From: Metasolibacillus sp.
GTDB lineage: Bacteria; Bacillota; Bacilli; Bacillales_A; Planococcaceae
Length of the DNA stretch: 64,000 nt
NCBI RefSeq assembly: GCF_025291715.1
Contig: NZ_JAMBIZ010000003.1
Span: forward strand, 124,001-188,000
Direction: 5' to 3'
Part shown: in pieces, positions 8,655 to 53,262 of the stretch
How positions within the stretch are numbered: the first letter of the stretch is position 1
Layout: each line of letters opens with the position of its first letter
The notes under the pieces: generated by a model
What the model saw: the letters and a program-made list of their open reading frames with translations, nothing else
Told to the model about the DNA's origin: nothing
Database searches by the model: none
Made by a program: the position numbers and the translations under genes

Positions 8655-8905
8655 GGACCATCTGAAAATTCATTTTGAGATGGTCCTTTTGCGCCGAGGA
8701 TGGTGGCATGCAATGCGACCACCGCAGAAGCACGGTATAGCGGATATTTTATAAATAAGCTTGGACCGTCTGAAAAGTATTTTGAGACAGTCTCTTTGCG
8801 CCGAGGATGGTGGCATGCAATGCGACCACCGCAGAAGCACGGTATAGCGGATATTTTATAAATAAGCTTGGACCATCTGAAAATTCATTTTGAGATAGTC
8901 CTTTT
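8655..8905. repeat. Tandem repeat of about 108 bp (2.3 copies) with terminator-like hairpins
   Basis: Copies run 8655-8762, 8763-8869 and a partial 8870-8905. Each begins with a hairpin of the type GGACCATCTGAAAA...TTTTGAGATGGTCC. Copies 1 and 2 then share a near-identical block of roughly 80 bases containing GGTGGCATGCAATGC and CCACCGCAG, with further small inverted repeats. Most of the 362-base gap between sigK and pssA is this array, and no coding frame is evident. It could be a duplicated bidirectional terminator or a copy of a dispersed repeat. Confidence 0.8.
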
Positions 8906-48588: not shown

Positions 48589-49332
48589 ATGCAACGATAT
48601 TTTGTAAATGAACAATTCGATGAACAACAGCAGCTCGAAATGGTTGGAGAAAACGCAAAACATATAAGTAAAGTGATGCGCATGCAAAGCGGTGATGAAA
48701 TCGTTGTTGTCACAAATGGACAAGCCTATATTAGCGAAATTGTAGAAATTGACATAGCCGTCATTGTTCGTAACACAGGTCGCACAGTGCCGTCGCCAGA
48801 AATGCCGATTAAGGTTGATATTGCCTGTGGCTTACCAAAGGGAGATAAGCTAGAGTTAATTGCACAAAAAGCGACAGAATTAGGGATGCACGCATTAATT
48901 CCATTTGCAGCAGAGCGCTCCATCGTGAAATGGGATGACAAAAAAGGTGAGAAAAAAACGGAGCGTCTGCAAAAAATTGCACAGGAGGCAGCAGAGCAAT
49001 CACATCGTACATATGTCCCTGAAATTCAGCAGCCTATTTCATTTAAGCAATTGTTAGCGCTTGTGCCACAATACGACGCTGTTTTTATTGCCGATGAAGA
49101 AGATGCAAAGCAAATCAAACGCACAAAGTTTGCGGACAAGCTAAAAAAAGTGTATGATAGTAAATCGGAATCAATCTTATGTATTTTTGGTCCAGAAGGT
49201 GGCATCTCTCGTCAAGAAGCAGCAAGCTTATTACAGGCAGGTGCTGAAACGATGTCGCTTGGTCCTAGAATTTTACGCGCAGAAACCGCACCATTATATG
49301 CGCTTTCTGCCATTTCATATGAATTTGAATGA
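48589..49332 (+). CDS. rsmE: 16S rRNA m3U1498 methyltransferase RsmE
   Basis: A 247-residue SPOUT methyltransferase that makes 3-methyluridine in 16S rRNA. The N-terminal PUA-like domain (residues 1-70) is followed by the knotted domain with FGPEGGISRQE and LGPRILRAETAPL. GAAGGAGAGAG precedes ATG 48589. The stop overlaps the region of the mtaB start. Confidence 0.95.
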   Translation: MQRYFVNEQFDEQQQLEMVGENAKHISKVMRMQSGDEIVVVTNGQAYISEIVEIDIAVIVRNTGRTVPSPEMPIKVDIACGLPKGDKLELIAQKATELGMHALIPFAAERSIVKWDDKKGEKKTERLQKIAQEAAEQSHRTYVPEIQQPISFKQLLALVPQYDAVFIADEEDAKQIKRTKFADKLKKVYDSKSESILCIFGPEGGISRQEAASLLQAGAETMSLGPRILRAETAPLYALSAISYEFE

Positions 49333-49352
49333 AAGAAAGAGGTGTCGAAGTC

Positions 49353-50687
49353 TTGGGAACAGTAGCATTCCAAACGCTGGGCTGCAAAGTAAATCACTAC
49401 GAAACTGAGGCAATTTGGCAATTATTTAAAGAGCAGCAATACGACCGTATCGACTTTGAACAGCAGGCAGATGTCTATGTCATTAATACATGTACGGTAA
49501 CGAATACGGGAGACAAAAAATCGCGTCAAGTGATTCGTCGTGCAGTGCGTCGCAATCCAGATGCCGTTATTTGTGTAACAGGCTGCTATGCGCAAACATC
49601 ACCAGCAGAAATTATGGCAATTCCAGGGGTCGATATTGTAGTTGGTACACAAGATCGCCATAAGCTGCTTGGCTTAATCGAGCAATACCGTGAGGAGCGT
49701 GAGCCAATTAATGCAGTGCGCAATATTATGAAAAATCGAGTTTATGAGGAATTGGATGTCCCTGCATTTACAGACCGTACGCGCGCATCTTTAAAAATTC
49801 AAGAAGGCTGTAATAACTTCTGTACATTTTGTATTATTCCTTGGGCACGTGGCTTAATGCGCTCACGCGATCCACAGGAAGTGATTCGTCAAGCACAGCA
49901 ATTAGTCGATGCAGGCTATTTAGAAATCGTTTTGACTGGTATTCATACAGGTGGTTATGGGCAAGATTTTAAAGATTACAATTTAGCACAATTATTGCGT
50001 GATTTAGAGGCGCAAGTAAAAGGCTTAAAGCGCCTGCGTATTTCGTCAATTGAAGCATCGCAATTAACCGATGAAGTGATCGATGTATTACGCAAGTCAA
50101 ATATTGTTGTAAATCATTTGCATATTCCGATTCAATCAGGCTCAGATACGGTATTAAAACGTATGCGTCGTAAATATACGATGGCATTTTTCTCTGAGCG
50201 CATTACGAAATTGGCAGAAGCGTTGCCAAATTTAGCGGTAACATCTGATGTGATCGTTGGTTTCCCAGGTGAAACAGAGGAGGAGTTTATGGAAACATAT
50301 AACTTCATCCGCGACCATAAGTTTTCTGAGTTACATGTCTTCCCATATTCGAAGCGTACAGGCACACCAGCTGCACGTATGGAAGACCAAGTGGATGAGG
50401 AAATTAAAAATGAGCGCGTGCATCGCTTAATTGCCTTAAACGACCAGTTAGCGAAGGAATACGCAGCTCGCTTTGAAAATGAAGTGATGGAAGTGATTCC
50501 AGAGGAGCGCTTCAAAGAAGGCGAAAACGCAAATCTATATGTTGGCTACACAGACAACTATTTAAAAGTAGTCTTTGAAGGCACGGAAGACATGATTGGC
50601 AAATTAGTCAAAGTAAAAATCACAAAAGCAGGCTACCCATACAATGAAGGGCAATTCGTTCGTGTATTAGAGGAGCAAATGAGTTAA
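49353..50687 (+). CDS. mtaB: tRNA t6A37 methylthiotransferase MtaB
   Basis: Adds methylthio to t6A37 of tRNA. The 444-residue radical SAM enzyme has the UPF0004 domain (AFQTLGCKVNHYE, NTCTVTN, TGCYAQ), the cluster motif CNNFCTFC and a C-terminal TRAM domain. TTG 49353 follows AAAGAGGTG and matches the family N terminus; ATG 49329, which overlaps the rsmE stop, is the alternative start. Terminator at 50694. Confidence 0.94.
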   Translation: MGTVAFQTLGCKVNHYETEAIWQLFKEQQYDRIDFEQQADVYVINTCTVTNTGDKKSRQVIRRAVRRNPDAVICVTGCYAQTSPAEIMAIPGVDIVVGTQDRHKLLGLIEQYREEREPINAVRNIMKNRVYEELDVPAFTDRTRASLKIQEGCNNFCTFCIIPWARGLMRSRDPQEVIRQAQQLVDAGYLEIVLTGIHTGGYGQDFKDYNLAQLLRDLEAQVKGLKRLRISSIEASQLTDEVIDVLRKSNIVVNHLHIPIQSGSDTVLKRMRRKYTMAFFSERITKLAEALPNLAVTSDVIVGFPGETEEEFMETYNFIRDHKFSELHVFPYSKRTGTPAARMEDQVDEEIKNERVHRLIALNDQLAKEYAARFENEVMEVIPEERFKEGENANLYVGYTDNYLKVVFEGTEDMIGKLVKVKITKAGYPYNEGQFVRVLEEQMS

Positions 50688-50693
50688 GAGAAA

Positions 50694-50727
50694 GCACAGT
50701 CTACATTGCGTAGGCTGTGTTTTTTTG
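50694..50727 (+). terminator. Rho-independent terminator after mtaB
   Basis: GCACAGTCTAC pairs with GTAGGCTGTGT (one wobble) and is followed by seven T. Confidence 0.9.
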
Positions 50728-50732
50728 CAAGG

Positions 50733-50904
50733 TGCTGATATATTATGGATTTCGCTGATATATTTCTAAAAAGCGCCGATGTATCGCAGCAAGCCCTTGA
50801 TATTTTGTGAAACGCAGATAAGTGCTAGAAATTCGCAGATAACCTAGCAAATTTCGCAGATAACTCTACGTAAAACGCAGATATATTTTTAAAAATCGCA
50901 GATA
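50733..50904. repeat. Phased 21-bp repeat, nine units of CGC(A/T)GATA
   Basis: CGCAGATA occurs at 50813, 50834, 50855, 50876 and 50897, exactly 21 bases apart. Degenerate units at 50733, 50753, 50774 and 50795 extend the phase leftward with 20-21 base steps, then one step of 18. The 13 bases between the octamers are AT-rich and not conserved. It fills most of the 322-base gap between mtaB and the UvrA-like gene. A protein-binding array phased to two helical turns, or a decayed minisatellite, would both fit. Confidence 0.85.
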
Positions 50905-51009
50905 AATAATCCCTCTAAAAATTCACGCAGCTTTTCTCTAGCTCATTCTTGCCATCTCTTTCAACTTACGCTAAAGTTAGAAAGCATCACTTTTAAAGGA
51001 GGAACTTCC

Positions 51010-53262
51010 ATGGCGCAAACGTATATTGAAATTGTCAATGCGAGAGAAAACAATTTGGAAAATGTCAGCCTGCAAATTCCGAAAGGGAAACTCACTGTTT
51101 TCACAGGGGTATCAGGTTCAGGGAAATCATCTATCGTTTTTGATACAGTGGCGCAAGAAGCAGGGCGTCAATTGAATGAAACGTATAGTAGCTTTGTCCG
51201 CACATTTTTGCCAAAATACCGCAGACCTGAGGCGGATGCAATTCATAATTTATCGACAGCGATTGTCGTTGACCAAAAGCGCTTCGGTGGTAATGCACGT
51301 TCAACATTAGGCACTGCAACAGATATCAATTCACTGTTAAGACTATTATTTTCACGCTTTGCTACGCCGAGCATCGGCTATGGAAATGCTTATTCCTTTA
51401 ATGATCCGAGCGGCATGTGTTTGCAATGTGAAGGCATTGGTAAAATTATCACATTGAATATCGACACAACATTAAATAAAGAAAAATCATTAAATGACGG
51501 AGCTATTTTGCTTCCAGGCTTTGGTGTAGGCACATGGCAATGGAAGGCGTATGCAGAATCAGGCTTCTTCGATAATGACAAAAAAATACAAGATTACACC
51601 GAGCAAGAGCTGCATCAATTAATGTATGCAGAGCCGCAAAAAGTAACAGTAACGTATCAAAACAGCGAAATAAATGCCACTTATGAAGGTATTGCAGTAA
51701 AGTTTATGCGACAAAATGTCAAAACGGATAAAGATACAACAAAGGCAGCCGCAAGTAAATTAGAGCAATTTACAACGATGTGTAGCTGTCCAACATGCGA
51801 TGGTAAACGCTATAATGAGCAAGTGCTTTCTTCAAAAATATTAGGTCATTCGATTTATGATATGACGGCGATGCAGCTAGATGAATTGATGGCAGTTTTG
51901 CAAAAAATTGAAGAGCCTTTAGCAAAGGAGCTAGTTGTAGGAATTACAGAAAGGCTGCAAAGTTTATGCGATATCGGGCTTGGCTATATGACGTTAACGC
52001 GCGAAATGCCAACATTATCAGGCGGGGAATCGCAGCGTGTAAAAATGGTCAAATATTTATCTAGCAATTTAACAGGCTTAATCTATATTTTTGATGAGCC
52101 GAGTACAGGCTTGCATCCACACGATGTCTATCGCTTAAATGATTTGCTTATTAAGCTACGCGATAAAGGTAATACGGTTTTAGTTGTAGAGCATGACCCA
52201 GATGTCATTCAAATTGCAGATCATGTGATTGATGTTGGTCCAGCTGCTGGTTCACATGGTGGGCAAATTATGTTTAGTGGTAACTACGAGGAGCTGTTAA
52301 AAGCAGATACGCTAACGGCACAATATTTAAAATCGGAAGCAACAATCAAAGCGAATCCACGTCCTGCTACAGAATTTTTAGAGAGTGACAAAAGCACATT
52401 GCACAATTTGAAAAATGTTAGCTTGCGAGTGCCAACAGGTGTATTGACGGCGGTTACTGGTGTAGCTGGCTCAGGAAAAAGCACGCTTGTACATGAAGTG
52501 TTTGCAAAAAAATATCCTGAGGCCATTCGCATCGATCAAAGTGCTGTCCATGCAAATAGTCGCTCAAACCCATTGACCTATACAGGCGTGATGAATTCCA
52601 TTCGCAAAGCCTTTTCTGATGCCAATGGGGTGGATGCAGGGCTGTTTAGTTATAATTCAACGGGTGGCTGCGAGAGCTGTGGTGGTACAGGGACGGTAGA
52701 ATTAAATTTATCATTTATGGATAAAGCAGAGGTTGTATGTACACAATGTAATGGAACACGCTATAAACAAGAAGTGCTGCAATATACGTATAAAGATAAA
52801 AATATTGTCGATGTAATGGATATGACAGTGGCAGAGGCGGTAGAATTTTTCGAGGCAAAGGATATTAAGCGCAAATTAACAAGCTTAAATACGGTAGGTT
52901 TATCCTATTTAACGCTAGGACAACCACTCAACACATTGTCAGGCGGGGAATGCCAGCGTTTAAAGCTCGCGAAGGAAATGTCAACGAAGGGCAATTTATA
53001 TATTTTAGATGAGCCAACAACAGGCTTACATATGTCAGATGTAGCGACAATTTTAAATATTATGAATACGCTTGTTGACAAAGGCAACACGGTTATCGTT
53101 ATTGAGCATAATTTAGATGTAATTCGCCATAGCGACTGGATTATTGATATTGGTCCAGAAGGTGGAATTGGTGGCGGTGAAATTTTATTTGAAGGACCAC
53201 CAGTAAATATTGTCAATTGTGAGCGTTCAATTACAGCGAAGCACTTAACGGCAATAAGCTAG
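51010..53262 (+). CDS. Short UvrA-like ABC ATPase (DrrC/UvrA2 type)
   Basis: A 750-residue UvrA-family protein about 200 residues shorter than UvrA. It has two ABC modules with Walker A GVSGSGKSS and GVAGSGKST, signatures LSGGESQR and LSGGECQR, and zinc-finger Cys groups CLQCEG, CSCPTCDG, CESCGGTG and CTQCNG. The UvrB-binding region of true UvrA seems absent. Relatives give resistance to DNA-intercalating drugs or remove bulky adducts. GGAGGA precedes ATG 51010. A canonical uvrA is presumably elsewhere. Confidence 0.88.
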   Translation: MAQTYIEIVNARENNLENVSLQIPKGKLTVFTGVSGSGKSSIVFDTVAQEAGRQLNETYSSFVRTFLPKYRRPEADAIHNLSTAIVVDQKRFGGNARSTLGTATDINSLLRLLFSRFATPSIGYGNAYSFNDPSGMCLQCEGIGKIITLNIDTTLNKEKSLNDGAILLPGFGVGTWQWKAYAESGFFDNDKKIQDYTEQELHQLMYAEPQKVTVTYQNSEINATYEGIAVKFMRQNVKTDKDTTKAAASKLEQFTTMCSCPTCDGKRYNEQVLSSKILGHSIYDMTAMQLDELMAVLQKIEEPLAKELVVGITERLQSLCDIGLGYMTLTREMPTLSGGESQRVKMVKYLSSNLTGLIYIFDEPSTGLHPHDVYRLNDLLIKLRDKGNTVLVVEHDPDVIQIADHVIDVGPAAGSHGGQIMFSGNYEELLKADTLTAQYLKSEATIKANPRPATEFLESDKSTLHNLKNVSLRVPTGVLTAVTGVAGSGKSTLVHEVFAKKYPEAIRIDQSAVHANSRSNPLTYTGVMNSIRKAFSDANGVDAGLFSYNSTGGCESCGGTGTVELNLSFMDKAEVVCTQCNGTRYKQEVLQYTYKDKNIVDVMDMTVAEAVEFFEAKDIKRKLTSLNTVGLSYLTLGQPLNTLSGGECQRLKLAKEMSTKGNLYILDEPTTGLHMSDVATILNIMNTLVDKGNTVIVIEHNLDVIRHSDWIIDIGPEGGIGGGEILFEGPPVNIVNCERSITAKHLTAIS

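Follow-up and report, generated by a model that had tools for sequence, protein, structure and literature searches.

The array under study lies at positions 50733–50904 of the window (the whole 64,000-nucleotide stretch of Metasolibacillus sp. DNA that was analyzed), beginning just 3′ of the mtaB terminator and ending 106 bp upstream of a UvrA-like gene. The features of the locus are as follows:

49329–50687, forward strand: mtaB, tRNA t6A37 methylthiotransferase (TIGR01579 match above cut-off), the upstream neighbor of the array
50695–50726, forward strand: intrinsic terminator of mtaB, with hairpin 50695–50719 and T-tract 50720–50726 (sequence reading and hairpin script)
50733–50802, forward strand: first half of the array, CGC(C/T)GATA type (B), the motif of paralog N1 (genome G000, contig C6:76452), with units TGCTGATA at 50733, CGCTGATA at 50753, CGCCGATG at 50774 and CCTTGATA at 50795 (two mismatches)
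50813–50904, forward strand: second half of the array, CGCAGATA type (A), the motif of paralog N2 (genome G000, contig C55:168500), with five exact CGCAGATA units at 50813, 50834, 50855, 50876 and 50897, spaced by 21 bp
50949–50977, forward strand: possible promoter of the UvrA-like gene, TTGCCA-17-TAAAGT, a consensus match only, between array and gene
51010–53262, forward strand: UvrA-like ABC ATPase of 750 aa, the next gene, with no sign that it defines the array

The array comprises nine units with start-to-start steps of 20, 21, 21, 18, 21, 21, 21 and 21 bp, and consists of two joined pieces that match two separate array families of the genome, a B half followed by an A half. The nine octamers that the original prediction had described as evenly phased are thus real, but their phase is 20/21 bp with one step of 18 rather than strictly 21. 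Its division into five octamers spaced by exactly 21 bases and four degenerate ones agrees with the five exact CGCAGATA units (50813–50897) and the four CGC(C/T)GATA-like units that precede them. Four exact CGC(A/T)GATA pairs at 21 bp were observed in the window, against none in 200 Markov-resampled windows. Across 54 spacers of CGCAGATA arrays, the A's right before the octamer and the A/T and T right after it are well conserved, the sequence before the octamer is A-rich, and variability is confined to the middle; the claim that only the octamer is conserved and the gaps are free therefore holds for the spacer middle but not for its flanks. Spacer endings of TT and of other letters alternate in 27 cases and do not alternate in 5. 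The mtaB terminator hairpin was computed at −15.9 kcal/mol, with the end of its T-tract 86 bp before 50813 (by script). Regarding MITE features, the window array contains no inverted repeats of at least 10 bp; its predicted RNA fold is no better than that of shuffled sequences (z-score 0.27), and an Rfam search of the array region gave no match. Elsewhere in the window, positions 8655–8904 hold a 107-bp tandem repeat of 2.3 copies that is unrelated to the arrays.

The genome of the window (G000; 3.83 Mb in 83 contigs) contains 73 exact CGCNGATA-N13-CGCNGATA pairs (21 bp) distributed over 27 arrays, against none for the reversed control. These arrays fall into two subtypes, A (CGCAGATA, spacing 21 bp) and B (CGC(C/T)GATA, spacing alternating between 20 and 21 bp), usually with 4–6 units. 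Their positions are largely retained in the sister strain G109, which is represented by a complete chromosome; 7 of 14 inspected array sites of G001 coincide with array sites of G000, and array-bearing loci of Metasolibacillus meyeri have flanking genes in common with loci of G000 (L049/L121 and L035/L106). The window array of the sister strain is one 20-bp unit shorter, and its first unit and one spacer carry substitutions. The array at the mtaB site is B+A in G000 and G109, pure B in G001, pure A-like in G002 and absent from G003. Among the array-bearing genomes of the genus, the array at this site always begins shortly 3′ of the mtaB terminator; the location is kept across the genus and the motif type changes. 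Absence from sister strains, together with simple slippage variation among isolates, had been named as grounds for disproof, and what we found is an array that the sister strain retains and that two more species of the genus also have, with a changed motif type in those two. The other outcome envisaged for a genome-wide search, a dispersed repeat family, is right, as the 27 arrays attest, but incomplete, since the family also has a cognate gene.

Substitutions between G000 and G109 number 7/770 in octamers and 44/970 in spacers, a comparison that carries little weight because the octamers were defined by exact matching within a single genome and most of the differences come from two arrays rich in slippage. 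No array insertion event or clean empty site was found among the arrays compared. Array counts for G002 are lower bounds, because many contigs of this fragmented assembly begin or end within arrays (C1, C3, C45, C60, C64, C83, C125 and C135).

Similar arrays occur sporadically among the Bacillales, in Lysinibacillus, Neobacillus, Rossellomorea, Alkalihalobacillus, Sporosarcina, Metasolibacillus and others, and CGCNGATA-type arrays were recovered from 39 of the 261 genomes of the family, with up to 322 triples in one genome. Pattern matches outside the Bacilli (L107, L154 from a Chitinophagaceae MAG, L126 and L112) look like unrelated tandem repeats, and L126 and L143 overlap long reading frames. 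The open-access literature searched for the motif letters or for such repeats returned only unrelated papers.

Twenty-five of the 27 arrays of G000 lie 3′ of a gene read in the array's direction and none lies between divergent genes (one array sits at a contig end, with its upstream gene absent, and was scored by its neighbors' direction). The hairpin script detected an intrinsic terminator at 10 of the 27 arrays, against 9 of 104 random positions. We rejected a strict dependence on intrinsic terminators, given only 10 of 27; because most of the remaining arrays start right after a stop codon, the common denominator is the 3′ end and not the terminator. Local GC skew identifies the array strand as leading in 25 of the 27 arrays. 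Along the complete chromosome of G109 it switches at dnaA (1.01 Mb) and again close to the point opposite, with 20 of 22 arrays in agreement, and the leading-strand agreement includes all 8 convergent sites. The sole two lagging-strand arrays (G109 C1:2774919 and 3184741; L041 and L036 in G000) are both of CGCYGATA type and, in G109, flank the presumed terminus at a distance of about 200 kb on either side. Outside the genus, the orientation bias is weak and replication orientation is not clearly seen, and for this reason it is not treated as a defining feature.

Clustering the neighbors of arrays from many genera yielded one recurrent family, the NERD proteins. Other host neighbors recurring across genera (proS, nrdF, a dacC-like gene and mutS) were rejected as a few coincidences, near chance by a rough estimate. 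The partner proteins, about 300–340 aa long, combine a NERD (PD-(D/E)XK-like) domain with a zinc ribbon built on four cysteines and, at the C-terminus, a winged helix. Four of them, all encoded next to arrays, were compared with Pfam PF08378 (NERD) and match it at 55.8–84.5 bits, against a gathering cut-off of 22.1. A profile of the C-terminal part found matches in 235 of the 261 family genomes, with up to 11 copies each. Among 30 loci, the best-matching NERD gene is adjoined by a CGCNGATA array in the gene's orientation, sometimes on both sides, in 14 of the array-bearing genomes. Most genomes of the family have such NERD genes and no CGCNGATA arrays; these genes fit the pairing only because other paralogs have other motifs. 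When all copies in G000, G109 and G001 were listed, intact copies carried a 20/21-bp phased array of a private motif immediately behind the stop codon; in four badly broken copies the array was absent or reduced to remnants, and some truncated copies retained arrays. The same gene–array pairing, with still other motifs, was seen in other families of Bacilli.

The gene neighborhoods also bear out this pairing in number. A phased array, counted as a chain of at least 4 units within 300 bp, adjoins 58 of 66 intact NERD–zinc ribbon–winged helix genes, related sequences included, against 21 of 221 control genes (Fisher P about 6e-34), and several of the 8 array-less intact genes carry 3–4 units by eye. 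The first gene sample was enriched for array neighbors because the profile was built from array-adjacent genes; this enrichment does not explain the pairing, as most of the 66 genes have different motifs. No publication linking NERD proteins to repeat arrays was found in the open-access literature that our search covered. In g15, probably Lysinibacillus and the largest array-rich genus, many genomes carry two NERD genes in opposite orientation 9–11 kb apart (G097 C17, G098 C2:717922 and 728010, G091 C28, G094, G100, G102 and G087), which suggests a conserved island between them. At L322 (G094 C1:2150149–2153436), the NERD frame appears to read on through the array, which would add a heptapeptide-like repeat containing SPI to the C-terminus (21 bp corresponding to 7 codons).

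The motifs are specific to individual paralogs. One set of private motifs comprises CGCYGATA, CGCAGATA, CGCAAATA, CGCYAATAGAA, ATTCGCYC, ACRTGGAATAAA and GTGATCAAATA, and further ones include GTCGCCAGTATTT, CGCGGGTA, GAGTGGTGATAA and others. NERD genes with arrays on both flanks have the same motif on either side in 9 of 12 cases. At L315 and L317 (G105 and G091), the two flanks of one NERD gene differ, with CGCCGC behind and CGCTGATA before it, perhaps reflecting a recent specificity change. The more identical two of the proteins are, the more alike their motifs (Mantel r 0.35, 0 of 1000 permutations, related sequences included), a correlation partly expected from the common descent of a gene and its adjoining array; the cassette swap described below alone breaks this linkage, and it is one case. 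In a 544-kb sample, picked without regard to arrays apart from the window and four stretches close to array sites, each of the 8 chains of at least 5 units has a motif that belongs to one of the species' own paralogs, against 0 after shuffling.

Dispersed arrays likewise follow the presence of their paralog. The four genomes that carry N3 have 161, 170, 47 and 15 triples of CGCAAATA, and G001, which lacks N3, has 0. G003, in which N2 is absent and N1 is broken, has 0 CGCAGATA pairs and only two CGCYGATA pairs. As judged from these genome comparisons, paralog loss in the genus goes with loss of the paralog's dispersed arrays. The CGCAAATA array behind N3, compared between G000 (L341, C44:48382) and G109 (L342, C1:355631), has 31 units in one strain and 53 in the other, a fast length variation within the species.

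A natural exchange of specificity was found at N1. Identity between the N1 proteins of G000 and G109 is 99% over the nuclease part, 96% over the zinc ribbon and 74% over the winged helix, and the array behind the gene reads CGCYGATA in G000 versus TRCYGATAG in G109, with identity back to 50/50 right after the array. The N1 allele of G002, which also has a TRCYGATAG array, has AKYLL and RWRRY residues in common with the G109 winged helix. A dispersed array behind leuD (a name read from sequence) is CGCYGATA in G000 and TRCYGATAG in G109, where the sequence beyond differs too; the other CGCYGATA arrays of G109 are unchanged. On the evidence of these alignments, the winged helix and its adjoining array have been replaced together between two strains, amounting to a natural specificity swap.

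An AlphaFold2 model of the NERD protein, based on four sequences, reached a pLDDT of 82. Its N-terminal part resembles the PD-(D/E)XK-type nucleases Cdn1, Can2 and McrC (Z 7–8.7, middling), and its C-terminal part resembles winged-helix repressors (Z 6–7.6, middling), with pNOB8 AspA among the weak structural matches; no convincing solved relative was found by sequence. Residues D94, E107 and K109 are invariant in the NERD proteins, and together with the weak PD-(D/E)XK fold matches they mark the partner as a predicted nuclease.

We consider it likely that the octamers are winged-helix sites of cognate NERD proteins and that gene and arrays behave like a REP/RAYT system. The window array would then be a dispersed solo member of two repeat families belonging to N1 and N2, which are encoded elsewhere in the genome. 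The winged helix would recognize the octamer, and the 20/21-bp spacing, equal to two helical turns, would place several protein copies side by side on one DNA face. The original prediction had read the octamers as protein sites on one face; this idea gains support, and a concrete candidate binder can be named because the array motifs track the winged helix of the NERD family. Each paralog has its own octamer, in an array that adjoins the gene and in this genus follows its stop codon immediately, and because the array adjoins its gene, winged helix and array can be exchanged as one cassette. Copies of the array are dispersed over intergenic DNA, most of them right after a terminator or a stop codon, and the nuclease probably acts at its arrays, driving their duplication, replacement and spread. 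What the sequences show is the pairing of gene and array, the private motif of each paralog, the dependence of dispersed arrays on their paralog and the cassette swap; DNA binding, nuclease activity and the spreading of arrays by the nuclease are inferred. Gene and arrays together look like a nuclease-plus-repeat system, present across Bacillus relatives, that has not been described before. A stronger version is quite possible, though we stop short of calling it probable: an undescribed element class across the Bacilli, in which the winged helix and the array behind the gene form a specificity cassette and the nuclease copies the array to dozens of replication-oriented sites.

Alternatively, the NERD protein may be a regulator, its nuclease perhaps dead or regulated, that controls itself via its own array and other genes via the dispersed ones, perhaps by forming a roadblock or an insulator after terminators. 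The position of 25 of 27 arrays 3′ of co-directional genes fits such a regulon, as do the mtaB–UvrA-like site, which bears an array in 4 of 5 genomes of the genus despite the change of type, and the 7 of 14 inspected G001 sites that match those of G000. However, the neighboring genes have no common function and, apart from the NERD genes, recur little across genera, the array–gene orientation is much weaker in other Bacillales, and the catalytic residues are invariant; we regard a regulon as rather unlikely. A role in defense or addiction, in which the arrays would serve a toxic nuclease directed against incoming DNA as its sponge or self-mark (compare the repeat RNA of type III toxin–antitoxin systems), strikes us as improbable. 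Here a predicted nuclease does directly adjoin a private array, paralog specificities diversify and the distribution is sporadic, but the two partner proteins searched against PADLOC-DB gave no significant match (best E 0.0095 for one, none for the other), one query did not find the NERD system in plasmid and phage collections, and the array RNA shows no unusual structure.

Very little probability attaches to neutral minisatellites that grow by slippage with no protein partner: unit number does vary between strains (by one in the window array, and 31 versus 53 in the CGCAAATA array behind N3), yet one and the same octamer turns up among differing spacers at loci that are unrelated, change between strains is smaller in octamers than in spacers (a contrast biased by how the octamers were defined), and the motifs are tied to NERD paralogs. 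Least credible of all is the private operator of the UvrA-like gene that had originally been raised as one option, since the array, although 106 bp upstream of that gene with a promoter-like match in between, starts behind the mtaB terminator and is one of 27 dispersed arrays, 25 of which lie 3′ of co-directional genes, the 26 others of the same two types being beside unrelated genes.

The closest precedent for the preferred reading, a cognate nuclease with its own dispersed sites, is the REP/RAYT system, in which a repeat private to each gene flanks a nuclease-type gene, gene and repeat co-evolve, and the repeats are dispersed and intergenic (PMC2817692). REP abundance depends on the presence of a RAYT gene, RAYTs belong to the HUH tyrosine transposases, and REPs are palindromic sequences arranged as inverted pairs (PMC2817692). 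As in that system, array abundance follows the cognate gene, both in the CGCAAATA counts with and without N3 and in the loss of N1 and N2 in G003. Unlike RAYTs, the array-adjacent proteins match Pfam NERD and have no HUH (Y1) transposase match; unlike REPs, the NERD arrays consist of octamers that are not palindromes and recur directly every 20/21 bp in the gene's orientation. The parallel is close in behavior, with neither protein nor repeat related.

Other repeat-associated systems offer partial likenesses. In type III toxin–antitoxin systems such as ToxIN, an RNase gene is preceded by longer repeats that function as RNA. A nuclease gene, predicted in the NERD case, adjoins its own short tandem-repeat array in both, whereas NERD arrays are DNA-phased at two helical turns, have no special RNA fold and are dispersed genome-wide. 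Iteron and plasmid centromere arrays are short direct repeats phased at two helical turns on which winged-helix proteins sit side by side, with one locus per replicon. The NERD arrays resemble them in repeat type, phasing and winged-helix partner, whose binding would be the corresponding step, but differ in occupying dozens of chromosomal loci and in a partner with a nuclease domain. Unlike CRISPR arrays, with near-identical repeats of ~25–40 bp, unique spacers and cas genes, they have an 8-bp core, 12–13-bp gaps and a NERD rather than a Cas partner.

The natural winged-helix swap supplies ready-made pairs for recognition tests. If the proposed reading is right, the large and widespread NERD–zinc ribbon–winged helix family would gain a DNA target and a specificity code readable from genomes, along with a likely role in making dispersed repeats, and it would represent a second solution, with an unrelated nuclease, to the role that RAYTs play for REPs.
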